Made by a program: the position numbers and the translations under genes | Origin: Opitutia bacterium | Lineage (GTDB): Bacteria > Verrucomicrobiota > Verrucomicrobiia > Opitutales > Seribacteraceae | Assembly: GCA_018645475.1 (NCBI GenBank) | Contig: JABGWU010000302.1 | Span: 1-54,474 of the forward strand | Length of the DNA stretch: 54,474 nucleotides | Direction of reading: 5' to 3' | Notes under the pieces: generated by a model | Told to the model about the DNA's origin: nothing | Database searches by the model: none | What the model saw: only the letters and a program-made list of their open reading frames with translations | In this document: positions 5,647 to 50,765 of the stretch, piece after piece | Layout: every line of letters starts with the position of its first letter | Numbering within the stretch: position 1 is the stretch's first letter

Positions 5647-6145
5647 TTATGGGGTGGTTATCCTTAATCGGAGAAAGGTTTTACCCCTAGATGGTAAACC
5701 TTGCGAAAGAACCCAAGTTTGTCTTTCCATACCTCCACCGAGATAAATTGTTTTTTCCATTTCCACCCCGCTAGTGCTCCAAGTTTGCAAGTTATCACTT
5801 TGTTCAACATGATAATGAAAAATTTCCCCAGCTGTATTAATAGTTGAATTCCCATCTTCTTTAAACCTAACAAAAGAAATCCTTGGCCGATTGTCATTCA
5901 AAACGGGGCGATAAGGAAGATCCTGCCTGCGATCCATTGCCAATGAATCTGCCCCAATTGCCCTTTCAAACAGATTCGAATATCCATCTCCATCAGAATC
6001 AGTATAGTCCTCATTAAAAATCTTTCGTGCTTGAATAGAATCAATAAAAGGATTCCTCAATAAAGCCCTTTCCAGAAAACGATCTTGAATACCCAAGTAT
6101 CGAACATCACCTTTTCGGAACTGCCTCCATACCGTTTTATTAACA
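5647..6145 (-). other. Conserved C-terminal module of the giant protein
   Basis: About 165 residues after the last Big-like unit. It has a charged helix-like stretch (WRQFRKGDVRYLGIQDRFLE), the calcium-type loop DSDGDGYSNLFERAIGADSL (about 5955-6000), RISFVRF, a 'HYHVEQSDNLQTWSTSGVEM' segment, GGGMERQTW and the end KTFLRLRITTP. Each element has a counterpart in the same order at the C-terminus of the product of 50214-54474. A role in secretion or surface anchoring is plausible but not shown. Confidence 0.7.
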
Positions 6146-9100
6146 TCAATAATGTTCAATGTTTTAGAAACTGGTTGAGCCGCTACAAAATAATTATTTC
6201 CAGGCACATTAAAAAGTAACTCTACTGAACCTGACCGAAGAGGAATTATTTGGCTTCCTCTAAAAACTCGAGCGACACTCGGGTCAGAACTAGTGATTTC
6301 AAGAGGAATACCACTTGTTGACCGAACTCCCTGCAATACTAAAGGACGATGCCCCCGTGGAGTATCCCTTAATCCACCAGGTTCGGTTGGTAATGGAAAG
6401 CGAATCTCCTGCCTTTGTTTTGAAGAGACATAAAAAACTTGAGTAACCTCAGGTGCGGGATTTACATATGCACTTCCACTTTGCCGTGCGGTAATACTAA
6501 CATTTCCCTCAAGCCCATCTAGAGTAACGACTCCCACTGAATTAACACTGGCAGGACCTGAGTTAACGATAAAAGTAACGGGCAAACTGAAAACTGAATG
6601 ATTAATACCACTTGATACAGCAGTTGCATTTAGTTCAAACGCGGGATCATCTCTCACTTTTTCAGGAATCAACTCAAAGGTAATGACTTGATCGTCTTTT
6701 ATGCCTGGATGAATGACTGAGAGAACCCTGCTAACAGGATCAGCGGGATGAAAACGATCATCTCCAAGTTGCATCGCAGTTATGGTAGTCGATCCTACAC
6801 CCGTAATGGTAACGATATTCCCAACAACCATAGCAACAGATGGGTTTGATGAAACATAAGAAATAGAAAGCCCTGAAGATGCGACTGCAGTTAAAGGAAA
6901 CGAGCTATCACTCGAAGCTTTATCAACAAGAGGAGAAAATGAAATAGTCTGGGCGCCACCAAAAGAGGGTGGTGTCGTGGAATAGGGGTGAATTGGATCG
7001 AGTATCGATGTTAGTCCCCATTTATGCGCAAGGTACCCCTCAACTTTTTGGCGATTGACCGAATTGACTGATTCATCGTAAACGAGAACTTCGGCAATTC
7101 CCCCGTCGAATGAATCACCAACTTTATCAAGAGCCGATGCTGAAGCTGAGTCTGAATCTGAGCCCACAATTTTTCCATTAATCCACAGAGATTGAGCATC
7201 TGGAATTACCCTCATACTATTAACGCTCCAATTTGACGATGACTCCTCGGAGAGAATGTCAATTCCACCAGAAGCAGCCTCCAGTCGAAAAAGTCCATCT
7301 GGGTTAGTTGTGGACAAATCCCCACCAAGAACTGTCGATATACCAGGTGTATCTTGTCGGTGAACGATGAATATGAATTGTGCATTCGGTACTGCTGACT
7401 GAATAACAAAAGACTCTCCAGGGTTCGATGATGAATCAAATTCCATAACAGGCTTATTATTAAGCATATTAGGATTCCATGTTGGCATAAGATTAACAGT
7501 AGCTTGAATTGGATTATTTGTATTCCCAGATTTATCTCCCCACATGCTTACGCGTTTACCGGAAATGAAATCAAAGACATTATCCACTTCGTTGTCGGCA
7601 TTAACATCATTTGCATCGAACCATAGTTTCAGTCCAGGAGCTGAGTCAGAAAATAAATTTCCATATCCGATGGTAAAGTTTTGATCAACAGGGACTGCAG
7701 GATTAAAACGACTATCCCCGTGCTGAAGTGCTGTAATAGTAACATTACCTGGTCCATGTATGAAAACTTTACTTCCATGAATGGTGGCCTTTGCTGGGTC
7801 AGATGTAGCGAATTGCAATCCAAGTCCAGATGAAGAATTCGCATCGAGCTCAAAGGGGAAATCGCCTACTGACTGATCCACAATGGGCCCAAATGTAATA
7901 TTTTGTGAAGTTTTCAACACGGTTAAATAGTTATAAACGGGAAGTGCAGGTGCAAATTCATCGTTACCCGACTGTCTTGCCGTTAACTTCGTTGTACCCG
8001 CACCAACAATTTCAAGAGTTTTAAAATCGCCTCCCCCGAGTCCATAAATTTGAGAAATCTCGTTGATATTCAAACTGTCATCATAAATTCGTACATCATC
8101 AACGATACCGTTAAAAGGATTATTCGAGCCACCAATCTCCAATGCTGAATATCTTTGTTTTAAAGGCAAACCAGTTATTGGGATAGATGAGAGTTGATTA
8201 GAAAGATTGCCATCTACAAAAAGTTTAGCCGTTCTATTAGATTCATTGGAATCATCATACACAACCGCAAGGTGAACCCATTCATCTTCTTTCAGAACAG
8301 GAAGTGAACTAACTAAGTTAACTTCGGTCGTATTTCCATCGGTAAATAAATTAAAGGATACTCGTCCATTCCCACTTTGCTTTTTAAGATCAAAAACATT
8401 CATAGGTACAAATCCACCTTTTGATATGATTAGTGACTCTGAAGAATTAAGATCCGATGAATTTAGCCATAGGCTTAATGTAAAACCACCATTCACGGGG
8501 ACACTTCCAGTCACCACACGACCATTAACCGCACCTAATTTAAGCCCGTTACCAAATCTACCTCCGACCCATGCGTTTGAAACTCCGGTTGAATTCAGAT
8601 CAAGCAATGTGCCGTTATAATTTCCAATAGTATCTATTGCGGCACTGTAAAGACTTTCATCAAGTTTCCAGTATGCAGTTAAAATATCCTCTCGTGTGGT
8701 TAAAATACGAGCCACAGATTCATCATCGACCTCGTATAGTAATGGAAGACTGGTTAGATTTCCGTCCATAGTTCTCGAATATCCAGTCATGGAAAGGCTG
8801 GATAATGTTGCAGAGACTGAAGATAAATTTTGATCAAATACGAGTTCGTGCTGAGTTTTATCTGAAACAGTCAAGAATCCATCAAGATAAGTAATAAAGT
8901 ATTTGTCAGAAATAACACCACTTGCATGGATAGGGTATAGACCTTCTGGAGTTCGAACGGTTTGATTGCCATCTCCAACAGTAGTCGAAACCGAGACACC
9001 TTGAGTCAATTCGCTTTCATTGTCATCATGAGCAAAACCTTCAAATGAATATGTAAAATTTGGATTGGACTGATCAGATTTCCTGAACTGGTCATGAACT

Positions 9101-12100
9101 CGTACAACAAGTTCCTTTTTCATAATTTGAACATCCAAATAAAGTGGCTCAGCGGACAACCAATCTAAATTACCGGCTTGTGAAGCCCTAATTCTCACTG
9201 AACCTGGAGCCAATATGGATAAGATCGAACCATTAAGATCCACAGAAGAATTTCCGTCGATCAAATCAAGGGAGACTGGCAAACCTGAACTTGTTGTAAA
9301 ATTCAAGTCAATTGGGTTTATCCCGTAAGAAAGTACACCCAAATCTTGATTAAAAGAAATACTTTGCTGCCCCCGTAGAACGACAAGCTTTATAACCTCT
9401 GAATCCCATCCCGAAATATTGGAGACTAATAATGTGGAATTATATTCACCAACTGCTGTTGGAATACCAAAAATCAATCCACTTACAGAATCAACCTCAA
9501 GACCTGTTGGTAAATTCGTAGCATTGTACTCAGTTGGTCCCTTTACAGACTCAATGGCGTAAGAATATTCTTCGCCAAAACGAGCAATCAATGGAGAATT
9601 AGCAAATTCGTACACAGACTGTCTTTCCTTCGGTGATAAACCCTGATCAAAAATTCTTAAATCATCGATGGATCCGCTTATAAAATCCGTTGTAGCTGTT
9701 TTGCCACCAAAATAAAAAGTGGTGTCAGTGAAATCACCCGTCAAACCTCCTTTTGCATTAAATGGGGCAACGGCTTCCTCTGTGTTCGCATAAATTGTAA
9801 TTTTATTACCATCCCATTGAAAAATATAGTGAACCCATTGATCTGTGGTAAGTGGAAAGACATTAGAAATTTTCCAAGAACCGGCAATCCTAGCTTCAGC
9901 ATTAACAAATCCATTTGATACATAAAATTTGATTCGATCACTATTAAATATATAGCCATCCAAATCGTTGGTGTTGAGCCAAAAACATATAGCAAAAGGA
10001 CCGGTGAGATTAAACTTGTTCACGACATTGGGTAAGCGAATAGTTTGGTTCTCATCAAACCTTAATGCAGTTCCATCTCGACCAGGGACGGAATGAAGAT
10101 AGAGATTAAAAAACGAACTGGCATCACCCGTATTCCCAACGCCCGATGAATCTACAACATTTGTGCCATTTAATTCATCAAAGGTCCAGTAAACAATAGG
10201 ATTGCTCGGCAATAAGATTTCAGGTGAATTGTCAAAAATCGGACTATTTGTACTATATAGATGGGCCCCAAAATCACCATTCCCTCCGCCAAAAAGCTCG
10301 ATTACCTCGGAAACACCAAGTGCACGACTGTAAACCCTAAAATCATCAATCTTATCCGAGAAACGACCTGCCCCGCCGAGATGATTACCAATCACCGAAA
10401 TAGGTGAAGCAACATTTGCATTCACGGAACCGACAGAAACTCCATCGACCCAGAATGAAGTCTGTCCACCATTGCCCATTGCAACCAAATGGTGCCAACC
10501 TGAGCCCAGAGTTGTGGCCCCAAATCCAGTCATCATAAAATTACCACCATCATAAACTCCTAACTCCTTGGCCCCAGCTTGATCAAAAACAACATGAGCA
10601 TTAGCACCACCACTGACTAATGCATGGCTGAGTAAAACATCAGTATCAATGAGTGGAGTAGTAAACCAAGTCGAAATTGTCCAATTTGTTGGAAGTGCAA
10701 GTTGATTAACACCAAGACTAATTTTTGTTTGTTCAGAATTATCAAATTCCAGTCCCGAACTAAACTTTCCTGTGGTATTTAAATTAGCTTCCTCAAGTTC
10801 AGCATTTCTCAATTCAGGTGACGCATCTTGAACCGTTGTTCCATCTGTCTCCTCGAACGGGTAGTAAAGAACTAATCCATTCTTAATTTTGTAACTGCTT
10901 CCAGCCAAATCAGGAACAATTCCCCATTTATGAGCTAAATACCCCTCAACCTTTGCTTTCTCTCCTTGAGACAATAAGCGGTCAAAAATCATAACTTCCC
11001 CGATCTCACCGAGTAACTGACCAAATCCTGTACTCGGATCATTACCCAAAGTCAGTTGCTGAAGTACATTATATTCATTGGAGTAAGAAACCAAGCGCGG
11101 TGTAGTTTTGGCATCCAAGGTCCAACCAGTCGAACCATTGGTTGCCCCCACACCCACACCCATTCCTTGGGCAATCATAAAAATGTGTACATTCCCAACA
11201 ATAAGATTCAATGAACCAATATTATAGGACTCTCCCGTTGCAAATCGCATAGCAGGATATCCCTCAAAAACTGATCTTGCATATGTAGGAGAAGCGTTAG
11301 GAACAGACTGAGTTGCATTCTTCATGCTCTTAGATTTGTCCACCCAAAGGGGGACGACTGCACCATCACTCCATAGATCATTACTTCCATCTCCGTCTGG
11401 GTCCATTGCATCTAACCATAAAACAAGGCCATCTAATGTATGCTTTGTGAAGCGTGTATCACTTGCGGTGAAAGTTTTAACTTCAGAAGCCCAACTGCCA
11501 CCACCCAAGTTTTCAGCATAAGCTCTGTAATAATATGGCTTATTTATTATCAATCCTTGTACCAGTTCATCATATGATCCCAATGAAACAGGGTTACCAC
11601 TATTTACATCCAAAACATAATCCCACTTTGAATCGTTTGTATCATCAATCAAAGTAGAATTCTTATCGATCCATTCGTCACCCCAGAATATCTTCACGAT
11701 TGGGTCATCACCACCACGAGTCTCAACGGTTGTGTTTTCACGTACGCCACCAAAAGGATTAATTAATGAATATGGATGAGATAAGGGTAACACATCTTCA
11801 TTAAGGCGCCATTTATGAGCCAGGTATCCCTCCAACTGTGAACGCTCCACTTGATTAAGTTCGCGATCAAAGACCATAACTTCTGCAATTTCACAGGTGG
11901 ATTTCTCATTATTATTTCGATAACCGCCAAATTGGAGAAGACCGGGGCCAAAATTATTATTATTTGATCCACGGCTATCGGAACGCAATTCATCGCCATC
12001 TCGCCAAAAAGAAGCTCTTGGGTCACCTCCCTTGGCTTCGATTATCCCAAGATGCAAATGCCAATCTGTATCCATTCCTGAAGCCAAGTGAACCCAACCT

Positions 12101-15100
12101 TGCGCAAACCATCTTTTTGTTGAACCATTATGAAAGCCAAACACCCAATTTCGTGTTCGCGATGATATTATGCGTCCGTTCACTCCACCAGTGTACCTTG
12201 CAAGAGATAAAATGGTATATCCATTATTTGTAAGAAAATCAAAGTTCGTCTGTCCCCAAATCATGTCATCGCCATCAAAACTGACCACAGGCTTACCCTT
12301 AAGGGCGGAATTGAAAAATCTTGGATTACCAGATACCCCCAGCATATTTCTTTGCTTACCTGAGCCATCCATCCATTCGGTAACGACATCTCCGTTGGAT
12401 AATAACGAACCTTGGTCCTCTACATTATCTCCATTCATATCTTGAGCGGAATACCAACCGGCCAAACCAGAAAAAGTATCAACCTTGAAAGACAAATCAA
12501 CCACAGATCGGGTGACTATAATTTCACCCCCAGTTGATACTACTTCAGCTCGAAGGGTAGCTTGTGAAGGCAAAACATTGGTAGGACTCTTCGTTAAGAC
12601 AACTGGCTTTTTAATCGATAAGAATTCAATAAATCCTTCGTTTGAAGAATCTCCTGCAAAAATCAAGCCCGCTTCCGCTTCACTCAATCCACGATCATAA
12701 ACTCTGACTTCATCGACATACCCTTGATAATTGCCAAACCCAGAAAAAACACTTGTTCCCTGAGGAGCGCCTATGGAAGGTATTTCGGGATGCAAAGACA
12801 CCATCGGATAATCAAGTAATGCCGGCTCTCCTTGTAATATTCCATTGAGATAAAGTTTTAATGTTTTAGGAGAATCGCCAAAAGTTACTAGGGCATGGTG
12901 CCATTGATCATCCTTAACATTAACATTACTTGTTACTTCTGCATAAGAACCATTTTCCCCAACCTTTGCCTTTAAACTACTTCCTTCAATGGCAATCCCA
13001 AAACCTGAGGACAGCGAGCCTTCATCATATATTGTTTGATTGATGTACCCCGCTTGAACCGAAGACGTTATATCGTCGTTAAAAGTAGCATTGATTTCAA
13101 AATCAGACAACGCAGAGCTATAAAAACGAAGGTCATCTATCTGCCCATTAAAATAATCCCTGGCAATTCTACTTGTTCCGCCAATCTCCCAGGGTTCCGA
13201 AGCTAGAAGATTTAAAAAGGCGTCCTCTGGCAAAGCTATGGTGTCAATCAATGCACCGGATTGGAAAAGCTTAAGGTTTGATGCATTGTAATCTAAAACA
13301 ACCGCAACATGAGTCCAATTGGAAGAAGCCAGAGGAATGGATGAAAATACAGAAACAGTCTGAGTCGCAGATGAATGAGTGAAAGACAGAGTATTATTTC
13401 CATCCATCTTAAGAGAGAAAGGGCCTCTTTTTATAACACTTGAAGAATTTTCAGTAATAAAAAGATCTGGATTTACGGTTGGATTAACGAGAGTGAGTGA
13501 TGAAGGACCAGAAATTGCACTAGGCGTTGAAAAATATAATTCAACTGAAGAACCACCAGTTCCTTCTCCATGAACCAGTGCAATGGGGTAATATCCTTCA
13601 CTTAAAACTACATTATTATTTTCATTATTTGGGGAGGCTGCATCTAAAACTTTTTCATTTCCTAAACTTCCGGAAACTTCAAAGGCACCATTTTGATTTA
13701 AATCTATCCAAAGAACACCACGATTGTCATTCCCTCTTGTTTCCCAACTATAAGTGCCTTCCTCTTTAGCTCGAAAAACTCCGGTAAATAAAGATAAATA
13801 ATTATTATTTTGGTTGATACCAATTCCAGCATTCTTGAAGTGATCGTCATTTAAGAAAGATAATCCGTTACCATTCGGTCCACTAGTTAGGACATTTGCA
13901 CCGCTTGGATTAAGTGAGAACAGTATATCAGTACTTGAAAAATAAACTTCACTCATCGGTAATGTAAACCCGTATGAATTTAATTGCCCTTCAGTATATT
14001 TACCTGGTGCAGGATTTGTGGGGTTAAGCCATAATGAAATTGTATATGATTCCTTATGAAGTTCCTTAAGCACTCCTTGGGTTTCGAGAGAAATTGAATC
14101 ATCTAGACCATCAAGACTGATCGAATTGCCGTAATTACCTGTCCCCCATGAAGAACCACCGCTAATATCACCTTCGAGTTGATTCACACTTATGTCTGTT
14201 GCGAGCACACCACTACCTTCGTCAAATGGGAAGTAGGCAACCAAGTCTTTGTATTTTGTAACAGTCGGTCCAGCATAGACCTTAGCATTTGGCTTAAAGT
14301 GAAAACTCACACTTCTACCCTCAAAAGAATTCTCTAAATACCCCGTTGTATTTAAGTCCATATTTAGCCAATTTGAACTTCCATCAAAGAACAAGCCTCT
14401 TGAATTGAAGCCAAGCGGGCGAGTTGCGTTATTGTCAACCCCTTCAAATCTTGCAGTCTTTTGAGGATAAGTAGAGTCATGAGCAATCTCTCCATTCTCC
14501 TCGTCTAATCTTAAAAACACCATCAACCCATCAAGAACCTGAGGGTCTCCACTCGACCAGTCTTCTCCATCTGCACTACTTGCAAACGCTCTGAAAAAAT
14601 AAGTTTCTCCTGGATTCAAGCCGGTAACGGTTGCGTTAAAATCTCCCAAAGCTAAGGCATTCCCCGATTCGACATCAACAAATGAATCCCAACTTGCCGG
14701 ATCAAAACCGCCATCTTCATTACCATAATAAACACGGGCAGTTGGAAAGTTTATATCCTTACTGACGATAGTGCCGGCAAGATTTACCGTACCCATCGCT
14801 TTGGGTGTTATACTGAGCATTTCAACAATGGGGGGTAGGGCAACACTGGAAGTTTGGAATTTCATGGTGCCATTTAAAGTCACACTCATGATATCAAGCG
14901 AAGAAAGCGAATGTTCATACAATCGAACTTCATCAATGATTCCATTGAAATAATTTCCATTTTCATCACCGCCCACACGCATGTCTTTACGTGCGACTGT
15001 ATTGACCCCCATTAATCCCCATTTATAAGTTAAATAGGAACGAACCTCCTCTATTTCAGAATCGGTTAACGCTCGATTAAAAACAATTAATTCACCAAGA

Positions 15101-18100
15101 TCTCCATTCGCAGTCCTACCTCCAATATTTCGATCATTTGAAAAATTATTTGCCCTTACATTGGAACTTGTCCGGAGAGAAATAACAGAAAAGTCAGATG
15201 GCCATGGATCATAAATACCATATGGTTTTCCATTAACGGCAAAACTGGAACCTGATTTTATACCCACATTTGCATACGTAGGATGAAAAACAGATAAACC
15301 ACCATTGCCATGAAAATCATAATTTCCAGAATCACCCAACAAATACCAATAGCCAGAGTTATACTTTACTGCAGCAAAAACAGTTCGGATATCGGAAATT
15401 CGGTTAAAGGAATGATATTCTCCATTATTGCCTCCATAACGCATAACTGAATGACCATTAACTACATTTGGTACCACAATGGGACTACCGTTTTTCGTCG
15501 CGTGATTATTATTTCCACTTTGATCATTCCATAATCCATCAGCACTCGATAATTGACTCGCATCCAACCAAAGGCTTACCCCACTTATAGTTCCAGGGAA
15601 ATTATGATCATGTTCAAAAGTCACATTCTCACGATTACCATCGATATAAATAAACGCATCAGCAGCACCATTCGATCCATTAGGTAGGACCACAGCCAAG
15701 TGTCTCCATGCATTATTATTTAAAGCGGTTGAACCGACAAGGCGAGATCCACCAATATCAAGATGTGCCTTTCCATTCTTTAATGAAACCGACCAATTGG
15801 AAAAGTCTGCAGATTCTCCCCAATCAATGAGTGTACCATTTGGATTGCTGGATTTCATCCACAAGGAGAGGGTTCTCGATTTATCGCCCAAAATCCCCTT
15901 GAATGATTTTGTGACTACATGGGACCCTGAACCATCAAAACTAAGGGCTTTACCAATTTCTCCAAAGACTCGAGATGCATTATCAATTCCAACAAGTGTA
16001 CCGGAATATCCACTTATTGAATCCACCGCTACAGTCCCGGAAGACTCATCGAATTTCCACCAAGCTTTTATTCCCTCTTGTGGGGGTAAACTCCAAACTT
16101 CAGATTGTACGGAATTAGAAGCCATCCAGCGGTAGAAATAAGTTGAACCAAGGTTCAGATTATTCACCAACTGTGTCGCCATACCCTCGGAGTGAGTTCC
16201 ATTTAGATCGATACGATTATCCCAAAGGGTATTATCAATCGGATTAACCTGGGGGTTATCTCCACCATCGTTGTCTCCCCAAAATAAAGATAGGGTAGGC
16301 GGATCTCCACCATCATTATTAATTAATGCAGTAAAGCGAGCTGAGCTTGATGTGACATTTCTTGGAGCAGAACTGGAAATAACGGGTGCGGCTTTGTCCA
16401 CAATTATCCTCAATGTACCCTGACCTGTTCCCGCTAGGTTAGAAGCCGTCACATTAATATCAAAGATCCCAATATCAAGAGGCTTACCAACAATTTCACC
16501 ATTTAAAGGATTCAAAGATAAACCAGAGGGCAGGGCAGTTGTGGAAAAAGAAGTAGGATCACCGGATGCCCCAACTGCGTGTTGTAAATAAACTACCTCT
16601 TCAGTCAAATCTTTTGAAGAAAAGATTTGATGAATTTCCCCTTCATTTAACGCATCTTTATAAATTCTCAGATCATCAAGTATCCCCCCAAAATAAGCTC
16701 TTGAATCATTTCGCCAACGTCCAAATTGAAAAGGCTCTGCAACTCCGGTTCCAATTTGTGATCGCGTCCAGTTAGCAATACTCACCCCATCCAGGTATAT
16801 GTAAATTTCTGAACCGTTAAAAGTATGAGCAAAGTGTGCCCATCGGCCAAGCAGACTATCCGTGTGATAAGCTCTTTGATCCCACCCCCAGTGTTGACTT
16901 ATCAATTGCGTGTATCCACCGTCCTTAATATTGCGCAACCCCCAATACCTATTGACACCGTTAGCTCCGGAAGTTTCACCATAGCCATAAAATCCAGGTT
17001 CGGACTGCAAATTATTAGCGTCCACCTTGACCCAAAAAGAAATAGTTCTTGGTTTCTTTCCATTTACATCCAGAATATCTGCCGTTGCTTGGGTTGAAAC
17101 ATAAGCATCGGAACCATTAAATTGGATTCCTTTTCCGTAATATCCATCCTGCCAAGTTGTACCCCCAATAAGATTACCATTATATCGAGCAAGTGCGTCT
17201 TTTGTTATCTCGCCACTGCCTTCGTCCATTGGCCAATAAGCAACTAAACTTGAAGGCCTAGTTGAAACACCTTTTCGAGTAAGCACCTGCCCAGTACTTT
17301 TATAGGAAATGTATAAATCACTTGTTCCATTAACCACCGGCGGCTTTACCTCTTTGAAGGTTCCTGAACCAATCGAAATAGACCCTTTAATGATTGAATT
17401 TGAAGCAGCCATCACGATACGCCCTCCACCGGCACCACGATTACCACCAAGTGCACGAAGAAGGCCTTGATTGTATATATTTTTACCTGACAATCTGAGT
17501 GCTCCACCTGAACCGCCCCCACCGTGATCATACTGATTTGCGTTACTTCGTCCATTACCACCGTTTACACTGACAATAACTCCCGGGGCTATAGTCAAAT
17601 CACCTTCTGCTTTCAGCTCCAATGCACCACCACCAGCTCCAGAACCTTGGAAGTAACGCCCGCTTGAGCCGCTACTCCCTGGCATTAAATCGAAAATTTG
17701 ATCATCACCATAGCTGTAACTTGCTCCAACACCCCAATTTCCTGCAGTACCAGGTCCTCCGGGGCCTTCGCCTGGTATTTTCTCCGAACTCTTACCCATC
17801 CATGGGTTTAATACCGGACGCCCACCATACCCATTAACACTCGAAGCATCACCACCATCAAGAAACAAATCAGCACCGATATAAATTTCGCCTCCAGCCA
17901 CAGTGGTCAAGGAAAGGGAACGATTCCCCCGAAGAATAACTTCTGTATTACCGCTCAAACGAACTTGTCCAAAAGTAAAAGTGCAGATACCATATTCCCA
18001 GTTTTGACCTACACTATCTGTATAAGTGTGACTAGAAAGTACTCCCATACCATGGGCACCACCTTCAATTGAAAAATAACCAGTTTTAGTATCGATAGTA

Positions 18101-21100
18101 ACTCTAGAATTATCAGCCATTAAGCTGGAATTTTGGTAATTACCACCAATAAAAATTGAACCATCACTACTAAGCCATTCTCCAGATACATCAATATCAC
18201 CAGACTTAACTTCAGCAGATGCAATCATGGAAACCCGACCGCCAGAAGACCCTCGATTTTGATTATTTCCATCAACCTGAACTCCACTTCCAGCCCTCGC
18301 TTCAATTCTTCCATGATTAAAAATTCTTGTGGCCTCCAAGCGAATCGCTCCACCACTACCCGAGGCGGCATTACCATCACCATTTCCGCCATTGGCAGTT
18401 ATAAGTACATTAGGCTCTATAATAAGTTCACGAGAAGCCTTCAAGTGAAGAGCACCTCCACCCGCACCAGCTCCATCCGAATCAGCTGAACCGCCTGAAC
18501 TTCCACCCAATAGAGAATTTAAAGAAGCATCTCCATATTCTTTAGCATTTCCAGAACCATGCCCACCATAAGAAGCACCATGCCCGACGGACGAAACTAA
18601 TTTAGGTGAACCTGGACCATTTCCATAAAGAGAACCCCCATCAACTCCAGAATAACCACCCAATTTTCCAGTTCCTCCAAAATTCTCATTAGCTGCTCCA
18701 CCGTCTGCTCTAATGTTTGCACCCATGATTAAATCTCCAGAATAAGCTTCCAGGGCTAAAGCATTTCTACCTTGAAGCCGTACCACAACACCACCGCTAA
18801 GTTGAATTCGAGTAAAGCTAAACTTACAAACAGAATAAGGCCATGCGGCACCAGACTCATCAATATAAAGGAAATCCTCAGTCATGCCATAAGCAATAGA
18901 ACCATCACTATGAAGTAGACTTCCTACATCAGTGTCTATAACGACGGAACCACTTCTGAAGTCTAGTTCCTCCATGTAGGATGGACGAACAAAACGCAAA
19001 GTGCCCTCCGTCCCGAATGCGGCACCTGAGCCTCCAGATTTCTTTAAATTGTTAATCCCCTGATTGATAAGTGATGCTTCACCTTCTAGATAAATCCTGC
19101 CAGCACCACCTCCACCGCCTCCTCCAGAAACATCTACAATTGAATTTTCTGTTAAAACTAAATTCTTGGCTTTTAAGTATAACGCACCTCCTGAACCTCC
19201 CCCAGATCCAAAAACTCCCGCACCACCCAAGGCAAAAACCCGTGAATCTAATGTTAAGGTTTCTGAAGCCTCTACCTTGAGAGCCCCACCTCCACCTCCA
19301 CCGGTATAATCAACCGTAAATCCTCCACCACCACTACCACCAACAAAATCAACCAACCCGCCCACACCGTATGGTTTTCCATTCGTGGCAGTTGAAAGAC
19401 CTCCCGCACCACCATAACCACCACCACCGGCTGAAATGCCTCCCAGTCCACCGCCGGGGCCAAATCCAAGTCCTGCCACTTCACCCCCGTTAAACCCACC
19501 AGGACCCGCTTTTCCGACTGCCTCTATCGAACCATCGCCACCTGATACTGAAATAGGAACACCAATGAAAGCATTTCCTGCACGGGCCACAATTTCAAGG
19601 GAAGCAGAACCTTTTACTTCCACCTCTAAATTACCTCTTAAATCAATACGGTCGAACTCAAATCGACAAACATTGTAAATGTATTCATTTCCGATATTGT
19701 CTGATACTTTCTTTTGTTGAACAAAACCGGTCCTTTGATCACCTCCACTATGTCTCCATGTTCCTAAATTAGTGTTTATGACAAGTTTTCCAGACTCATA
19801 AATAACGCTATCTTCAGCCTCAAAGCTAATGGTTTCAGGAGCCCATTTACCCCCGCCATCGTTAGAAGTAAAGCTACGATAATGATAGGTCTGCCCCTTG
19901 GTTAAACCATCAACTTTTGCTTCGAATAAACCGCTATCATTGACCCAAAATTCAACTTCTCCCCATTGATGCCCCCAACCCTGAAACTTGGGAGCCAATC
20001 GAATGGCACGGGTGGTGAGACCATCGAGGTCATATTCAGTAAATAATCCCTGTTCCCTTAAACCAACTCCTCCCGGTGAAACCCTTAAAAGTGAGAAGTT
20101 CATCTCCTCATCCGCAACCCAAATCTCAACTTCTTTGAACTCATCAGAACGATCGTAGGGTTGGAAATAAATTCGCATTTTTTCCATCGCTCTTTCTTTA
20201 CCTAAATTAAAAGTAAGAATGGGATCTACTTTAAACCAAGCAGTCCAGGAACTTCGCCAACCATCCTGCGGCAAATTCCCATCAAGTAACCGATTAACCC
20301 CATAAACGCCTCCGGATTCATTCGGTAACGGTTCAGCTAAAACAGTAACATCACTCGACAATTTTCTTAACCCTACACTGACTTCCCCTACATCAATTAC
20401 ATTATCCCACAGGGACGGATCAACACCACCGTCAGTTCCACCCCAATAAATCTTCGTAGTTGAAATATTCTCGGCCCTTGAAGGAGCAAAGTTGCGGTAT
20501 GGGTGAGAACCGACTAAAGATGACTGAATACCCCATTTATGGGCTAGATATCCCTCCACCTTTCGTAATATAGAGGTGGGTAGTGGTTCGTTATAAATAA
20601 GCATTTCAGCCAAATCTCCCTTCCAATAAGTCTCATTATTACGATCTTTAGAAAAATTGGAAGCAGTGACCGAACCGCTTGTACGGATTGAAATAAGTAC
20701 ATATTGATCATAATCAAAATCACTGGTAAGCCCGTCCCTCATATTACCATTTATTTGAGTCAGTCCGTTTATTACATTTGGATGTGTCCAAGTACTTGAC
20801 CAAATTGCATTATTTGCACGATGAAAATGGTGGTTTGTATCATCCCCCAACAGAAAACCTTGATTTCCAGTTTTTCGATTCACCACAAGAAATACCGTTC
20901 GAACAGTTTCTATTTTATCAAACTCCATGTAATCGTTCGCACCATCAAAGCGAAGAACGGGCAACTCATTAAGACCTCCATGTACAAAAGAAGGCTGTGC
21001 AGTTGCCAAAGCTTGCGTCACATCACGCCCCTGTCCTGACTTGTCCCGGACAAGCGAAACAGACTCACCAGGGATTAAAGATAAAACATCCCCAGATGCA

Positions 21101-39100: not shown

Positions 39101-42100
39101 TCCAAATCGGTACTAGCATTAAAATCACTGATGGATGAATTGAATATTGCATTCGTACGAATGGAGGAACCGTAAGTCGGGCTTTCGACAACTAAATCAA
39201 AACGGGGACCAAGGTCGCCCATTCCATTACCCCATAATTTAACCACTTCATTCGCAGATAGAGCTCTTCCCCAAATTCGAATGTCATCAATTACCCCATC
39301 ATAGTATCGACCATTTAACTCCCAACCAATTCGCAAAAGAGTTGTTGAGTCGTCAAAATCAAGTGAATTTATGGTCGCTGTCCCGCCATTTAAATAAAGA
39401 ATGGATCTACCTTGTGCAGGGTCAAAAACAGAAACAATATGCGACCATTGATTAGGAAAAACCTGCAGGGGAGATTGAAAACGAGTTGCCCCGGTCCATG
39501 AACTCAAAGCTCCATACCGTATGGATGTTGACCAATCCCATCCATCATCATCAGTGGAAAAAAGAATGCTTTCATTATCAACTCCACCTGTAACTTGGTC
39601 CGGTTTTATCCATGCGGAATAGGAAACACCGGTGGAAGAACTACTCTGATTAATGCGAAAAGGTAACTCGAGGTATTCACCATTTAAATCCAGGGCCTGT
39701 CCAAACATACCTGAGGTTAATGTTGGATTCCCTGTAAACCCTATGGCAGTAGCATGATTCAATCGTCCTGATCTATCTAGCGTACGAGTGCCATTAAATT
39801 CATCTAGCGGATACCAAGCCAAAAGATCATTTTCTACTGTGGTGACAATCCTATGTTGAAACTCAAATGCAACAGCCTGACTTAAGTTTCCATCTTTAAT
39901 TATGGCACCTTGCGGAATCGATACTCGGACCATGGATGGATTTGTGGTAGCATTCAAATCATAAGTGTAGGAATTTGATACATAGGAAAACAGGGAGATG
40001 CTAGCCCCAGTTGCATTAACCTCGCCGCTACTTAGATCGGAATTAGAAATGATCACGCTGGAATTACCATCCTGAAATGTAACCGTTTGAGAAACAGGTT
40101 GGGATGAAAAAGGAGAAGGGCCTTGTATTAAAGGACGCAATCCAACATCACCAGATCCATTTCCATACAAGGATAAAACTTCTGCGGGGGAGAGGGCCTT
40201 TCGATAAACCCGCACATCATCCACTTCAGCCTTTGCCTCCCAACCAACCAAACCATAACGCCCGAGATAAAGGTTGTGGTCTGATCCATCACCCCAGTTT
40301 AGGTAACCACTGACCAATAACTCATCCAGCAAGGTTCCATTAGTGTAAAGTTTTAATTCAACACCATCGTAGGTTAAAGCATAATGGGTCCATCTCCCAG
40401 GATAGGACCTGGCTTTCACCTCCTTCCATGAATTCCCTGTATAAACATGACCCCTGATTGTATTATCATCATGGTATTGCAAATTAAATTGACCACTTCG
40501 AATCAAAACACCCTGTGAGTCATCCAGCATTTTAGTCCACATTGACAGGGTAAAGGAATTACTCAAAGAAAGGGCTTCACCATTTGCGGTTACAAAATCA
40601 GTTGGCAATAAAGAAAGTGATTGGCCAAGCTTACCGGGCGAGCGCGTCCCCCCCGAAAGAACTCCATCTATTTTACTATCTGAAAAATCAATAATTGATG
40701 ATCCATTACCTTCCTCGAAGGCATACCATAAAACTAGGCTATCCATTGCAGTCACATGAGAATGCTGACTAAAAGTTTTTGAAATCGCGGAACTATCAAT
40801 TGATCCATATTTTGCGGATCCAACCTTTAAAGTAACAGTCATTCGAGAAGGTTGCATATCAGGTGATAACGAAAATAAATATCCATTGCCACTAGCATTG
40901 AAACTCGTAACCACACCACCAGTTACATCGATATCTGATTGATTAAAGTCACTAACTGAAACAATTTGACCGAATTGAAAAAAGTCAATTCTACCAGAAA
41001 TGGATTGTCCAGAATGATTTGCATCAATTGAAATCATCGGAACCACTCCCAAATCACCGATCCCGTTTCCATAAAGGATACTCAAGTCATTAGGGTTTAA
41101 TGCAGAATCGTAAATTCGCACATCGTCCAAAATTCCTGAAAAATCATAATTTGGACTATTATTCCAAGAACCTAGCCTTAATGTATTTCCTTCAATGTGA
41201 CCATTTGCGTTTCCTGCGAAATCAGTCCTCACCACTTCAGTGCCATCTAAATAAACAGAATGCTGCTTTTGGTTTACGGTAACAGCCAAATGATGCCAAA
41301 TCGCTTGAACAGCAAGAGAATCCGGTGCATTTATACGGTTTAAATTAATTCCGGTTGCCCCTAAATTAAAAGAAAAGGAACGATTCGCAGTACTCAATGA
41401 ATTGACATCGTACCAAAGCAACATGGAATTTAAATCGTTTCCATTTGCTGCAAATATAGCTCCATCGTGTTGATCGCTATCTACTCCAATGTCAGTCAAG
41501 TAGACCCAGGCACAGAGGGTGAAATTTCCATCTTCAAATAAACCTCTAAAGTGTGGGATTTCAAAGTAATCGCCATTACCATCCAAAACAAGACCTCGCC
41601 CAAAAAGACCATTACCTAATGATGCGTCACCCTGAAGAAATCCATGATTTCTTGCTTTGGCGACATCCCAGGAAACTTTTTTACCATCTATTTCAAATTC
41701 TTCTTCAAATCTCCATCTGCTGAGCAATTCCTCCTCTTTATAAACACGCTCGTGGGAAAAATAGTTGAGTCGGAGGTTTTCAACGGAAAAATTAGAATCA
41801 GACCTAAAATTATCTCCCATGGTAATTTCGGGTTGACTCTTTTGTGAATGACTCAATGGCAAACTTCCATTCAAATCCCATTTGTGTGCGAGATAACCCT
41901 CAACTTTTTCAATATCCGAATCTGATAAAGCTGAGTTGTAAATAAGCAATTCAGCAAGCTTGCCCTTCCAGCTTCTTCCACCAATATTTCGATCATTACT
42001 AAAATTATCTGATTGGACATTACCCAGAGTTCGTAGGGAAATAATAGACAAATTATTTGGTTTAGATGTTTGCTTTCCATTAATAACCGAACCGTTCAAA

Positions 42101-45100
42101 CGGGTGTATCCATCAAAAACTTTAGAATCCCCCCAGGTTGTACCCCAAATATTACCATCTCCATTATTATGCCAATCCGGTTCTACCGTTGAATCCCCTA
42201 ATAAATACCTCAAATCTGAATTTGAAACAGTTACATCTTCTGCAATGACCCAGAAAACAGTCCTTATATCTTCAATCATATCGAAGGTATGACTTTCACC
42301 ATTCGTTCCTGAATAACTCATGACAGGCATGCCATTTTGCTCATTATTAAGCAGGGTAGGGGAACCTACTTCAAAAGAATGATTTGAATTTGAGCTTTTA
42401 TCCTTCCAAAAACCATCGCCTAAATTACTGACGACTGTTGTTTTAAAAGGGTGATCTCCCGGTAAGCTCGATGAAACCCCCCATTTATGAGCAAGATACC
42501 CCTCAATAGATTGCCGATAAGTGGTATTCGTCAGTGCAATAATCTCCATTATTTCCCCCGACCATGTTGAGACTCCTGTAGTACCATCGAATTTTAGACC
42601 AATCCGATCGATGTTGAAGTTTCCATTCACACTACTTTGGTTAAGGACTTGAGCACCGTTAACATGTAAAGTTGCATTACCTGGCTTTAAACTAAATTCA
42701 AGCAACTGGGTTGCAGTATGAGAATAGCCAACAACAGAAGTATTACTAAAAAATTCGTTGTTATTAACTCTCCACCATAAATTATACCCTGAACCACTAT
42801 TGTAGAACAAGGTTCGTTCAGTACCATTATTGGAATATAAATAGCCATGTCCATGAACCACAAAGAAGACACTTAGTTTATTCTGACTAATATCACTAGT
42901 AAGTGTAAAGCCATCATCAACGCCATCAAATTGTATTGCATTATTAACGATGGTCGGTTTGCTTACCTCGGTTGACTGAACGGCGTGGTTATTATTTCCA
43001 CTTTTATCACTCCATTGACTAACACTATTAGCGATGTGAGTGATTGTTCCACTATCATTTGCATCCAACCAAAGAGCAAATGGAGGCATATCCAAATTTG
43101 AGTCATTTGCATCTAACCAAAGGCTTAAGTTTTCAAGCTGAATAGGTGCCGAAGGTGCACTTATTGAAAAACGGGTAGAATTAGTCTCAGGTAAAAGAGA
43201 AACTATGTAGGATGATCCCTCGATGGTTGAATTGACCTCAATAACTTCTCCAACTGATAATCCAATATCATATTTATCGAGATTAGAAATAACGACAGGC
43301 TGGGAATCTTTACCAAAGGAAAGCTTTAGTTTCCTTGGATTTGAATCAACCGTTGAATTTTCCTCAATTCTAACTGAAGTAAATTGATCTCCAAATCCAC
43401 CGCCATATATTTTTGAAACCTCATAGTCCTCCAAACTGACATTGTATATTCGAATGTCATCAAGGTATTCCGCAAACGCTTCTCCTGTACTCGCATTTCC
43501 AATGTAATAGACATCACTTTGATCTCGCCTGTCGGCTTCTCCGACAAATAACCCATCAACAAAAAATCTAGTTCTTGCTCCTTTACCGATTACAGCAAAA
43601 TGGCGCCACTCCATTATACCAAGTGGGTTTAATTGATAACCCGTCGGGCGGTACCTATTAGGCCCCCATCCAACATCCCCATCAAACAGACAAACCATAC
43701 GATCGCTCCCACGAACGCAGAAATACCGATCGTAATCATTATTGGAAAGTTTGTCCTGCCCGCGATACAAAGAAGACCTACCTCCAGCTGTTGGTGGAAA
43801 TAAATTTCTGGCCCAAGCGGTCAAAGTCCATGCACTTCCCAAAGTAATGCCATTATTTCCCACACGCATACGGGCATCAACTTGATCCTTGCGAAAACGA
43901 ACCCCACGACCAAATCTACCGAAGGAAGAAATGCTTGCGTAATAAAGATCGGCCACCTGCATTCCCGCAGTTTTACTTACCGCCTGATTACTGTTTATGG
44001 CATCAGTATCAAATGGCCACCAAGCAACTAGGTTTTCTCCACGAGTAACGGCACGGTACATTTTACGAGTTGCAATTGAATTTCCTCCGGGTTGACCAAT
44101 TGGAGGCACATTGGTCTGATTGTATTCATCATATACGGAACCGTTGGTTATGGAAATTTGAGAAATAACATTTTCCTGATCAAGGAAGAATTCAAATGAG
44201 TAAGTACCGAGACTTTCTCTGGTAATTGAATTAGGCACAATCGTTCCCCCGGGAATCGCAAGATCTCCTTGGCTTGAATTAAAATCATTCACATCAACGA
44301 GTTCCCCACCACGAGTGAACATAATGCGCCCAACACTTGGGTTTCCTTCCACGACCAAATCCACATCAAAAGAAGAGCGGATTTCAAAATCTCCATATCC
44401 TCCACTATACAATTTCGAGACATCACTGGAACTGAGTGCCGCATTATAAAGCCTAAAATCATCGAGTAACCCTTTAAAGGTTCGATCATTACGAGTCTCA
44501 TCGGTAAACCTGCCAAACTGAAGAGGAAAAACATTGCCGGTTGAAATATTACTTTTTGACCAGTTATTCCTTAGAGTACCGTTGACATAGGCCTTTACAT
44601 GAGTGCCTGTGTACTGATGAGCAATATGCATCCATTTATTTTTAACTCCTTCGGAAATGTATATTTGTGGATCCCACCCCCAATGTTGCGAAAAGATTCT
44701 TCTGTAATTCGCAGTATCCCATAACCCACGCATTCCCCACATTCTATGCACCCCATTGGCATTGCTCCTTTGCCCCATTCCATAAATCCCTGTTTGATAA
44801 TCACGATTCGATCCATTTGGACTTTCATGCGGTTCCGCAAACATCCAAAATGAAATGGTTCTAGGATTACCATACCCAACTCCCATGCTCGCGGGGTAGG
44901 CGTTGGTCGAGACCCATGCGTTCTTGGGAAACCTCAGTGCGTAACCAAATTTGGAATTAGAATTATCGAAAGTCACATTACCATCCATGCTGTTGATTAA
45001 ATTGCCCACATATCCACTCATGTAATCCGTTACAGTGGTTCCATTTCCTTCGTCAAACTTCCACCAAGCGACCAAGTTTTCAAGTCTGGTTACGGGGCGA

Positions 45101-48100
45101 CCAAATCCAATATTAAAGGACAGTGGTTGATTTTCAGTAAGGGAAGCATCCCTAGCTATGCCCTCAGGCAAAGAGACAGTCAATATGCCCGGATTAAGCG
45201 TAGAGTTCAATTCAAGCCGTATACTTGAACCAGTAGTTGCATTAATGTCATGGAGAATCGCATTGCTCAATCCTAGCATGGATTCATTAAAGTCAACCAC
45301 CCATGGCATTCCATAACGGGTAAAATTCAAATCCACCAAAATTGGATTAGTGTGAGTTGCAGGGGAGTAAGTGGTTGATACGGCTAAATTTAAATCTCCT
45401 TTTCCATCGTTGTAAAAGGATTGATGCTCATTAAGTGAAGTAGCTTTATTGAAAATCCGAAAATCATCAATATTACCCATAAAACGACCATCTGAAAGTG
45501 AGTTCATTTGAGCCACTGCAAGCAGCCATTTCATTGTTCCACTCCTTAATAAGTCTTCCGCATAAACGCTGGTGGATCCAATCATTAATCCATCCAAATA
45601 AACCGACAATTCATCTCCGGATACAAGGCTAGCATCATACGAAACGGTTACATAATGCCAAGTTCCATCCTGAATGTCTGCACTCATAGTAGTTCGCTCT
45701 GTCTTACCAACCGAACTCATAAATAATTCAAAACTAGTCCCCTTAGTTCCAATCTGAAGAGAACAATTCTCTTCATTACCAAGACTAAACATAACATTGG
45801 ACATTTGCTGAGCCGACCAACTGAATCCCTCCTCCACTCTCCGAAACCAAAAATTTAAACTAAATTGTCCATTATCCCACCCCGTTGCAGGAACTCCCAG
45901 TTCAGCATAATCTCCTACATTTTGAAAAGAAAGGGATGTTCCATAACTTGCAGCTAAAGACCAAGATGCCCCTCCCTTCAACGATCCGGCATTACCGCTA
46001 ATACTGTCTGTAGCAATCGAACCCTTACCTTCATCCATCCACCACCAACTTACAAGATCTGACTTCCCGGGTACGGGAGGAACTAACTGGATAAAAATAT
46101 GGGCGGGTAGCGTGGGTTCTCCTCCTAAGTCTGCTCCAGCGTTTCTTGCCAGAGAAACATTGATCTCAGTTGAATTGGGAAGGGGAATTAAATTGAAAGT
46201 AAAATTACCATCTCCACCATGGTTATTAAAATTAACAATGGTGGCCCCGGTTACATTCAAATCACCCTCGACTAAGTTGACTACTACTACGGGTTCCTCA
46301 AATTGCAAAAATCTTAGGTGGATAGAGATGTTTGAATCATCAGTTATACTAGGTGCTGTAAAATCAGCAACCAATCCCATGTCCCCTCCCTCATTGTTAT
46401 AGATCTTGGTAATATCATCATCACTAAGAGCTACCGAATACACTCTGGCGTCGTCTACATAACCAGAAAATCGATCATTTAATGTTGGCATACCACCAAT
46501 AAACCAGTCGCCAAGGGTAACTTCACCTTGCTTCCCCGCAACAAATGAATTCTCAGCAGCTAAGCTACCGTTGATGTACTGCCTTAAACGCCCTTTATCG
46601 CGATCCACAACCATCACGACATGATTCCATTCACCCAACTCCATTGGAGTAGCAGATAATGCAGTCAATGCATTTTCGTAAGTAGCATGCCATGAAATAG
46701 GGTATCCATCAGAACCTAAAGCAACCCCTTTATGAGCAAGCAAACCGGCTCGCATAAGTATTGGAGATTTCCGCCCAAGAAAACGCGTCCCCAATCGGTT
46801 TCTCTGCCCGTGCCCCCCTTTATTATCCACCACCATTTCACTGCCATTTAATCCTGTCTTTGAAAAATCCCCATCCTCATCCAGATCAATCCAGACAACA
46901 CTTCCATCATCACTTCTTGTACCAAAAGTAATATCACCAGTACTTAAATATCCAGTATTTCCGATCCTTAACTTACCAAACCAAAGTCCGCCAATTTCAT
47001 CCACCCCAGTTCCTGTAGCGGTACCTGTCTTACCAGTGCCGGTTGACTTAGACCTTGCATCCGTGCTTGCTCCATCAAAATCGATAGGAATTCCAAAATT
47101 TATGTCCTCGTAGACATAATCATGCTGAACTAAGAATCCGTTGCCGTAATGATAGAGCAGAGATGATCCAATTTCATAGGGCCAGGGAGTCGTGATGTCG
47201 GAACCGGCTACCGCATTCGAATGGATACCAAAACCACCATTATCAGTCCCCGTCCAATTCCCACCGCCAAGTCTTCCACCCGTGGTGTTAGACTCACCTA
47301 GCAAAGAACCATCTATCCATATACGAACTCTCCCTGGTAAAGCCCCACCATTCCCAATTCTCATCTCCCATCGTAATTCATGGAGCTTACCATCTGCATA
47401 TCCACCTGCTTGAAGATCCGAAAATGGAATATCAAGAACAGCCATACCGTCACTGGAGCCACCTGAGACGGGAATGGTATCACCACCATTCCCTGCTCGA
47501 AGGCGTAAGAAACCTTCCTTGAAACCTAAAAATGATCCTAAGCTATCCCCTCCATGTTCCCAAAGAAGATAACTGTCAGTATGAGCAGAAGTGGGAAATG
47601 CGGTCAAAACAGAGAAATTCGCGTCTTCATCTCTAGTTATTATTCCATTGTTAGTCGGAATCTGTTGACCAAATAAAAAAGCTCTTCCGTCTATACCTGC
47701 ATCATATTGGTTGGGACTACCTGCAGTATCATCGATTTGGTTATCATTGTAAGGACCATCGAACAACCTTTCGGTAACTCCTCCTGGCATGACTGATGAC
47801 TGAAGAGCATCTCCAGGGTTCAGTAAATTAAGTGAATTATAATTAGTTGTAGCTCCCTGTCCCAACTTAGCCTGCATGTATTCCCCTCCTCCTCCTTCAT
47901 ACCATCCGATCGCAAAATTATATTCAGGAGTAGGTTTTAGAACGGTTGGCTTCACCCATACAGAGACCGAATAACTGCCTTCCCCCACATTCAAAGAAGA
48001 ACCCTCGGCCTCCCGGTAAAGCATTTCAACTTCAAAGTCGGGTAAAGCGATTCCATAGACCCTGAAATCATCTAAATATTCAGCAAATCTTTGCCCACCG

Positions 48101-50213: not shown

Positions 50214-50765
50214 TTATTTTGTACGAACTCTTACCCTGAGGAATTGCTTACCGCCTACTGCAGGATCGCTTGCTACTTTAGTTGTTCTAAAGAGTACACG
50301 CTCCATTCCCCCTCCAATATCGACTCCATTGCCGTCAGTTGAAGGACCATTAAGATCTACCTGGGTAACGCCAGTTGTAGTCCAAGTACGTAAATCTGTA
50401 CTTGTCTCTACAATATACTCAATTCCTTCCGAATTATAATCCGCACTGTATTTCTGAAAACTAATTCTTTGCTTGCCGTCTTTTTTGTTAATAGATCTAG
50501 GAAGGGTAGTTTTGGCATCACTCCCTAAGGAATCACCCCCAAAAGCACGCTCCATAAAGTTATTGACGCCATCACCATCTGAATCAACATCATCTGAATC
50601 AAAAAGGAGTTTCGCGTCTTCTATTGTAATACTTCCGGAACCATCCAAGTCGATCAGTCCTTTTAGGTTTTTCTTTGCGAAAAGTTTTCGGGCAAACTTA
50701 TTACGCTCCATTTCATAACGAGGATCCATTCTTCTCTCGTCAAAGAAAGCACTTTTTCCTGGCTT
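50214..50765 (-). other. C-terminal module shared with the giant protein
   Basis: About 183 residues. It has a charged segment (DERRMDPRYEMERNKFARKL), a dockerin/EF-hand-type loop DLDGSGSITIED, DSDGDGVNNFMERAFGGDSL, RISFQKYSADYNSEGIEYIV, GGGMERVLFRTTKV and the end QFLRVRVRTK. The copy in the giant protein has the same order but lacks the first EF-hand loop. Confidence 0.75.

Follow-up and report, generated by a model that had tools for sequence, protein, structure and literature searches.

Within the window analysed here (the whole stretch of DNA, 54,474 nucleotides), one reading frame encodes a giant protein in which complete domains are set inside other domains, repeatedly and in nests. We consider it very probable that this giant, which is probably a secreted glycan-binding surface protein, has grown by in-frame insertion of self-folding modules into tolerant places of its resident beta-sandwich domains, and that the inserts later host other modules and can be swapped. 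The evidence comes from complementary parts of interrupted domains in the protein itself, from related giants where the same sites are empty, and from modules that recur in unlike hosts.

The giant reading frame and its locus

The source contig is one of 375 in a 3.07-Mb metagenome-assembled genome (MAG, here G000) with a completeness of 82.6% and a contamination of 4.1%; the sample names of its relatives' MAGs presumably indicate seawater. The giant frame runs through 14,748 codons without a break (Table 1). Above the Pfam cut-offs it contains LamG (PF13385), He_PIG, DUF2341, Big_12, MBG_2, Pur_ac_phosph_N, Laminin_G_2 and PA14, and Laminin_G_3 (PF13385) alone gives 27 matches, 25 of them over the curated cut-off (some together with neighbours). 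No catalytic domain was found in the giant above the Pfam cut-off, Pur_ac_phosph_N being a domain which we take to be Fn3-like and non-catalytic. The F5/8 type C (F5/8C) module scores below its cut-off (24.3 against 28.2), and a related module of the congener G015 scores above it (44.5). An identity with TafC, based on NCBIfam matches, was rejected, the scores being far under that family's cut-off.

Four labels used below were coined in this analysis: "WLDA" for a frequent second LamG-like family, after the start of its sequence, "SLAP-type" for Ig-like domains situated between LamGs, and "X" and "lectin-like" for single modules. In the modular reading frame upstream of the giant the WLDA family had no Pfam match. 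This frame and the giant have in common a C-terminal domain of about 130 aa (44% identity), possibly a sorting or anchoring domain. The same domain is met at two further places of the genome, at one of them (C13) with internal stop codons. Sequence searches of the PDB with X and with aa 13950-14748 returned nothing useful. A 426-aa reading frame on the forward strand (positions 3787-5067) contains a motif of the CxxCH type (CMNCH) and matches nothing in Pfam.

Interrupted domains

Profiles were made from domain copies that are intact in the giant and were then run against the giant itself. A host appears as two or three partial profile matches with complementary coordinates, flanking a complete match of another module. 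The first-pass annotation had claimed at least ten interrupted domains, which is borne out by about 15 hosts and 17 insertion points; the fifteenth host, the GEVED/PA14-like domain around the lectin-like module, is counted from relatives only. The nests of three and four levels which it described are real as well: one reaches four levels (He_PIG, WLDA, LamG, X, from the outside; aa 5682-6426) and three reach three levels, namely LamG, LamG, PA14-like (11786-12418), SLAP, WLDA, WLDA (2170-2725) and LamG, GEVED/PA14-like, lectin-like (353-1172). That the whole protein would be organised in this way was too broad a statement, since nests span about 5,715 of the 14,748 residues (39%); the LamG/SLAP series, the Gly-rich arrays and the MBG tail are largely linear. 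Further complementary parts occur in the giant for WLDA (1-12 and 27-234) and LamG (7-156 and 178-215). Three more suspected nests, with the last Fn3 strand displaced behind a LamG, were dropped and are not claimed.

Table 1. Reading frames, interrupted domains (hosts) and inserted modules of the window; residues are those of the giant.
Feature	Position	Strand	Residues	Basis and remarks
Giant ORF	5647..49893	-		hydrophobic signal-peptide-like N-terminus aa 1-26, by eye
Upstream modular ORF	50214..54410	-		1,398 aa from first GTG, open to contig end
Host LamG, cut twice	46378..48837	-	353-1172	profile parts 1-56, 65-77, 128-215
Insert: complete LamG	48001..48627	-	423-631	inside LamG 353-1172
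Insert: GEVED/PA14-like	46759..47913	-	661-1045	by eye; family weakly identified
195-aa lectin-like module in GEVED/PA14-like domain	47146..47730	-	722-916	absent in G015, G024
Host SLAP-type bacterial Ig	41719..43386	-	2170-2725	interrupted in G000 only
Insert: WLDA-type, itself interrupted	41824..43140	-	2252-2690	profile; in SLAP 2170-2725
Second WLDA-type in WLDA 2252-2690	42442..43080	-	2272-2484	profile
Host He_PIG, level 1	30616..32850	-	5682-6426	profile 35-49 and 53-86
WLDA-type, level 2	30748..32673	-	5741-6382	uninterrupted in G028
LamG, level 3	31378..32586	-	5770-6172	in 18/18 congeneric rows, absent in G028
Module X, level 4	31546..32127	-	~5923-6116	present in 4/18 rows, absent in 14/18
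Host Fn3	28324..29358	-	6846-7190	profile 2-29 and 28-98; LamG inside
Insert: LamG in Fn3 6846-7190	28603..29238	-	6886-7097	profile, structure model
Host LamG after DUF2341 domain	24598..25731	-	8055-8432	profile 7-80 and 126-178
Insert: PA14 in LamG 8055-8432	24946..25470	-	8142-8316	Pfam 2e-5, 24.9 bits, cut-off 24
Host Fn3, cut twice	19810..23172	-	8908-10028	profile 3-28, 32-62 and 61-92
Insert block Fn3, WLDA, He_PIG, Fn3, Fn3, WLDA	20485..23043	-	8951-9803	in Fn3 8908-10028
Insert: F5/8 type C in Fn3 8908-10028	19939..20358	-	9846-9985	Pfam F5_F8_type_C 3.5e-5, below cut-off
Host LamG	14869..16071	-	11275-11675	profile 5-163 and 169-208
Insert: WLDA-type in LamG 11275-11675	14998..15588	-	11436-11632	unlike WLDA there in G016, G012
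Outer LamG of three-level nest	12640..14538	-	11786-12418	profile 3-78 and 95-213
Middle LamG	13063..14250	-	11882-12277	profile 2-79 and 113-213
Inner GLEYA/PA14-like module	13444..13998	-	11966-12150	GLEYA 4.2e-5, PA14 0.0015, both below cut-off
Host Fn3	11458..12624	-	12424-12812	profile 3-30 and 21-97, overlap of 10, not bridged on joining
Insert: WLDA-type in Fn3 12424-12812	11776..12465	-	12477-12706	profile
Host MBG/Ig-like	7900..8880	-	13672-13998	profile 19-42 and 51-85, N part weak
Insert: LamG in MBG 13672-13998	8029..8682	-	13738-13955	profile

When the host parts were joined, the best match spanned both in 9 of the 14 hosts tested (in He_PIG by just 0.3 bits), so that the expectation of split profile matches was met for complementarity and only in part for joining. 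Five hosts were not bridged: SLAP, where the C part was not found, WLDA-5741, where the parts overlap (4-22 and 9-235), MBG, whose N part scores 2.2 bits, Fn3-6846 and Fn3-12424. The first two are settled by uninterrupted relatives (SLAP by all eight covering congeners and G034, WLDA-5741 by G028), G031 and G035 show both halves of the MBG nest clearly, Fn3-12424 is supported by its own halves together with similar splits of Fn3 by WLDA in other reading frames, and Fn3-6846 is backed by a structure model instead. An empty site was observed for five insertion points (lectin-like 722-916, WLDA in SLAP, LamG in WLDA, X in LamG, WLDA in LamG) and a partly empty one for the block 8951-9803, whose site holds just one WLDA in G012, G021 and G034. 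Some nests are supported by profiles alone.

Relatives add detail to particular nests. Pfam GEVED matches the uninterrupted G015 copy of the GEVED/PA14-like domain below its cut-off (E 0.0098), and the module 722-916 has no Pfam match. The nearest relative of the WLDA at aa 2272-2484, 56% identical, lies in another giant reading frame, G017:C2. The C half of He_PIG (53-84) follows the WLDA in G028 as well. LamG 11275-11675 is uninterrupted in G015, G024, G003, G007, G028 and G034. For the nest 11786-12418, G028 and G034 likewise have two LamG N parts and, after them, two C parts, and the inner GLEYA/PA14-like module has an own-profile match in G034 and none in G028. MBG halves flank a LamG in G031 and G035, and the C half is found in G028 and G034.

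Structure prediction, which should have shown split halves folding together, gave a usable model for one nest only. The AlphaFold2 model of LamG within Fn3 (aa 6840-7192, 27-row alignment A2) had a pLDDT of 82.1 and a pTM of 0.65, with LamG blocks at 78-97 and the first 21 residues below 50; the four-level nest, with a 5-row alignment, remained at a pLDDT of 31.7. In the former model two host strands precede the insert (model residues 24-31 and 35-41) and six follow it (261-268, 271-277, 297-303, 307-314, 321-329 and 341-344), an order which would be expected of one Fn3 domain with LamG in the B-C loop. This predicted arrangement is consistent with the Fn3 halves packing as one domain and does not prove it, because neither coordinates nor PAE were at hand and the Foldseek matches listed were mostly jelly-roll. 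Most of the at least 50 matches listed were receptor-binding domains of clostridial neurotoxins (rmsd 12-16), which reflect the shared jelly-roll fold alone and are uninformative on relation or function; domain 4 of the arabinanase AbnA (5hon_A, rmsd 2.9) fitted better.

Filled and empty sites in related genomes

Searching 57 genomes with aa 5400-6450 of the giant, we found congeners which match residues 1-523 of this query and then directly 717-1050, that is, X is missing and its LamG is continuous. Orthologous giants could be taken from 16 of the 26 congeners (17 reading frames, several cut by contig ends or containing N); the other ten gave weaker matches. These giants are collinear and differ in whole domains which some have and others lack at exact positions within another domain. 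The giants of G000 and G009 form one collinear block of about 11,000 aa at 72% identity, more distant species show 41-63% identity in aligned blocks together with whole-domain differences, and giants of the family from other genera keep long collinear stretches with that of G000. The G+C content of eight giant genes within this one "genus" extends from 0.417 (G000) to 0.596 (G015), which seems wide.

Domain-size differences from 26 pairwise comparisons were merged by hand into 14 loci. In ten of them (S3-S12) at least one empty sequence has the junction within a host domain that the profiles recognise; S4, the SLAP host, is the weak case, where the host profile crosses the junction in 5 of 8 uninterrupted congeners at 6-17 bits. 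In S1 and S2 the junction is within a domain not covered by profiles, and the two other loci belong to the rearranged stretch aa 8950-9609. As a control, the share of residues placed 8 or more positions within a modelled domain match was determined for four of these proteins and came to 71-74%; ten of 14 loci therefore indicate that domain interiors are not avoided, and a preference for them is not shown. In the stretch 8950-9609 (window about 21067-23046) of G000 and G009, a WLDA which in congeners is nested in another WLDA sits upstream of it, separated from it by He_PIG and Fn3 domains; this could not be resolved into simple insertions.

The order of steps can be followed in the four-level nest. 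The junction between residues 5750 and 6173 of the G000 giant corresponds to 3088 and 3090 in G028, where the WLDA is continuous and is followed by the C half of He_PIG; G015 has a LamG in addition, and G000 has X on top of it. From these states it follows that WLDA entered He_PIG first, that LamG was added toward this genus and X in one subclade. In a tree of 18 rows and 2,061 columns, with strong support for 14 of its 15 inner branches, X occurs in G000, G009, G008 and G014a only. G004 is the sister of G000 (98/98) and yet has no X, so that one has to suppose a loss there, a local recombination or a second gain. The MAG G014 holds two versions of the locus (L050, L051), one with X and one without, which may be paralogs or two populations in the bin.

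In sequence terms, then, in-frame insertion of whole domains, its stepwise nesting and the collinear orthology of the giants are established. Repeated in-frame insertion of whole modules over a long time, as the first-pass annotation had it, is upheld by sites that are found both empty and filled, the host being continuous where the site is empty. The outcome which would have refuted it, namely that the halves are complete small domains, is excluded for sites with an empty ortholog.

Hosts outside the window extend the picture. In G031:C15 (L086-L087) a SLAP-type Ig is split 57 to 60 by a LamG, a nest that the window does not have, and an MBG is split 52 to 51 by two LamGs. In G035:C35 (L090-L091), of a sister genus, a WLDA lies between the two parts of a Gly-rich beta domain (profile 2-218 and 203-277), which means that Gly-rich domains can be hosts too.

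Recurrence and exchange of modules

Module X gave 19 matches in 13 of the 27 congeneric genomes (its own included), in hosts of various kinds. Besides the LamG of the G000 nest, it lies between Fn3 halves in G023, G019, G016:C14 and G016:C6, between Fn3 halves together with a further WLDA in G017:C2 and G009:C7, and inside WLDA in G016 and G026. It also stands just before the larger WLDA part in G017:C23 and just before the larger SLAP-type part in G010 and G007, small N parts being undetected in each case; the SLAP-type domain is probably another host of X. In G008:C223 and G020 it lies in stretches outside profile coverage. An intein reading of X was rejected: the Pfam hits include no intein match, and the flanks are in frame with and without X.

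Conversely, one place may hold different modules. The Fn3 loop before the Gly-rich array carries F5/8C in G000, G015, G028 and G034, a PA14-like module in G031 and in G053, from another family of the order, and WLDA in G035. The LamG insert of the first nest is of one subtype in G015, G024, G007, G025 and G016 and of another in G000 and G004 (by eye), with similar linkers, and this change looks like an in-place replacement of a nested module; the G000/G004 subtype recurs at a different site in G019 (66% identity). G019 and G024 also have different LamGs at one site. The occurrence of one module in different hosts, and of different modules at one place of a host, is thereby documented, as far as sequence comparison can do so.

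Copies within the giant are at most 51% identical (BLAST of windows of the giant against itself), so that either the insertions date far back or they came from elsewhere. Five of the 14 insert modules tested (S1, both of S4, X, S9) find their best non-orthologous relative, 46-62% identical, in G017:C2. The comparison is uneven, because G017:C2 was taken for its X and other giants were not compared evenly, and the donor step remains weak.

Six directly observed junctions in six different LamGs fall at profile positions 32, 32, 33.5, 74.5, 159.5 and 160 of 215, which is clustered relative to uniform draws (p 0.03); with five old nests added, p becomes 0.0007 to 0.009, depending on how their cut is placed. 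Exact placement in loops is not proven, because the junction intervals of the predicted LamG hold loop and strand residues alike. Of the 16 cases with known host length, 10 have an insert block that exceeds the host profile. Between G009 and G008, dN/dS is 0.12 (0.074/0.612) for the host flank, 0.11 (0.073/0.647) for the rest and 0.09 (0.052/0.554) for X; judged from these ratios, host flank and insert are both under purifying selection.

Discussion

From our analysis the following course of events is very probable. LamG, its WLDA-type relatives, PA14-like and F5/8C domains and module X were inserted into resident domains, and later turned into hosts themselves or were swapped for others. Their source may be the pool of giant modular genes in the bacteria's own genomes, with ordinary recombination moving them and no dedicated element involved, and selection would retain products that are in frame and foldable. 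Ordinary recombination is inferred, since no repeats were seen at the junctions of the 11 inserts compared, and inserts and the genes that carry them have similar G+C contents. A hydrophobic N-terminus with dozens of lectin-type modules suggests a surface protein which binds polysaccharide; adhesion to polysaccharide or its capture is likewise an inference, there being no data on expression, secretion or binding. Duplication contributes too, in that modules are copied and nested ones replaced in place. Tandem duplication with later truncation was rejected, since the halves complement each other and keep their order, and empty sites exist.

Movement of the modules by a dedicated mobile element or recombinase appears unlikely to us, though we would not dismiss it. 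The many hosts and loci of X and the repeated use of the same places are what such an element could produce. However, no word shared between the two junctions of an insert was enriched in any of the 11 inserts compared, even the best of them (S8) being equalled by 26 of 300 random pairs, so that the short direct repeats of a target-site duplication are not seen, and the inserts resemble their genes in G+C; old insertions could, admittedly, have lost such traces.

We give little credit to the idea that the ancestor was fully nested and that species differ by precise deletions of inner domains. It can draw on the module 722-916 (S2), absent only in G015 and G024, on the F5/8C of S6, absent only in G000 and G004, and on the lack of X in G004; at S2 and S6 loss is as likely as gain. 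Against it, S4 is filled in G000 only and empty in all eight covering congeners and G034, the 190-aa insert S9 is restricted to G026 and the WLDA in LamG of S7 to the sister pair G003 and G007, X is limited to four of 18 rows, and the LamG in WLDA is absent in another genus. S12, moreover, is empty in G028 and G034, two other genera, and in four congeners, and where filled it holds two unlike modules, one WLDA in G000 and G009 and another in G016 and G012. S5 requires a gain and a loss, or two gains. Growth by insertion remains our reading, with gain or loss undecided at some loci.

Could the halves be complete small domains, or artefacts of partial alignment? Most partial Pfam domains are artefacts, according to the available text of PMC4443539, and here the short N halves score only 2-15 bits, five hosts stay unbridged and many partial matches are unpaired. 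We hold this to be very improbable all the same: relatives carry these hosts uninterrupted at the corresponding position, the model of one nest is of good confidence, and the halves keep their order. In 33 reading frames (196,184 aa, with orthologs among them that are not independent) complementary pairs ran N-then-C 40 times and C-then-N 8 times under the same rule, with many halves unmatched, for example 34 LamG N, 34 LamG C, 40 Fn3 C and 40 He_PIG C. The objection is refuted for sites with an empty ortholog and open for profile-only nests. The idea that a modular gene was misassembled in this fragmented, incomplete and slightly contaminated MAG has next to no standing, given the collinearity with the separate MAG G009 (CAJQKB010000062), the low identity of internal copies and a frame which stays open to its end.

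A wider suggestion can be made only tentatively, and we would not yet bet on it: the giant genes of the order may be a module-exchange system, where reserved docking loops of the resident beta-sandwich domains repeatedly take up, lose and swap interchangeable binding modules from a shared pool, perhaps via a specific recombination pathway, so that the range of binding would widen through nesting and not through chain length alone.

Views on how one domain came to lie within another mostly rest on isolated, ancient examples. In these giants the congeners differ in about a dozen whole-domain insertions, and the same place can be met filled, empty or exchanged; this makes it possible to measure directly the order and polarity of domain insertion, its frequency, the sites it prefers and the sizes it allows. 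The insertions also form a natural catalogue of where LamG, Fn3 and Ig-type folds accept whole domains, which is of use to protein engineers, and show one route by which giant bacterial genes grow.

In the open-licence literature, preprints not included, we found no account of this protein or of polymorphic nested insertion of whole domains. The first-pass annotation had regarded the organisation as without known parallel. This does not hold for nesting as such, since domain insertion, even in six-level nests, is already known; the density of nested whole-domain insertion, its polymorphism among close species and the exchange of modules appear to be new, no report of them having been found. 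Giant genes of PVC bacteria (West-Roberts et al., as cited in PMC12057145) encode very large modular proteins with carbohydrate-related domains, interpreted as surface or extracellular, and the available part of PMC12057145 makes no mention of nested architecture or of domain presence and absence. Giant1-5 of Apilactobacillus are, in the accessible portion of PMC12863079, extracellular giants evolving by duplication and domain exchange, the only insertions mentioned there being short ones in loops of one beta-solenoid domain.

Nested insertions within earlier insertions, growing over time, are described in the available text of PMC2225427 as they are seen in our giant; those inserts are short (averages of 5.5 and 17.2 residues), whereas ours comprise entire domains, or blocks, some 140-850 residues long. 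Another close parallel is the ECOD survey in PMC13114784, which, so far as its accessible text goes, describes A1-B-A2 insertion and recursive nesting, up to six levels in cyanobacterial RNA polymerase, most insertion-bearing proteins having one level and inserts being smaller than hosts (median 115 against 199 residues). The giant has the same A1-B-A2 organisation and recursive nesting, and differs in its 17 insertion points, in inserts larger than their hosts in 10 of 16 cases, and in a presence and absence of inserts that varies among congeners.
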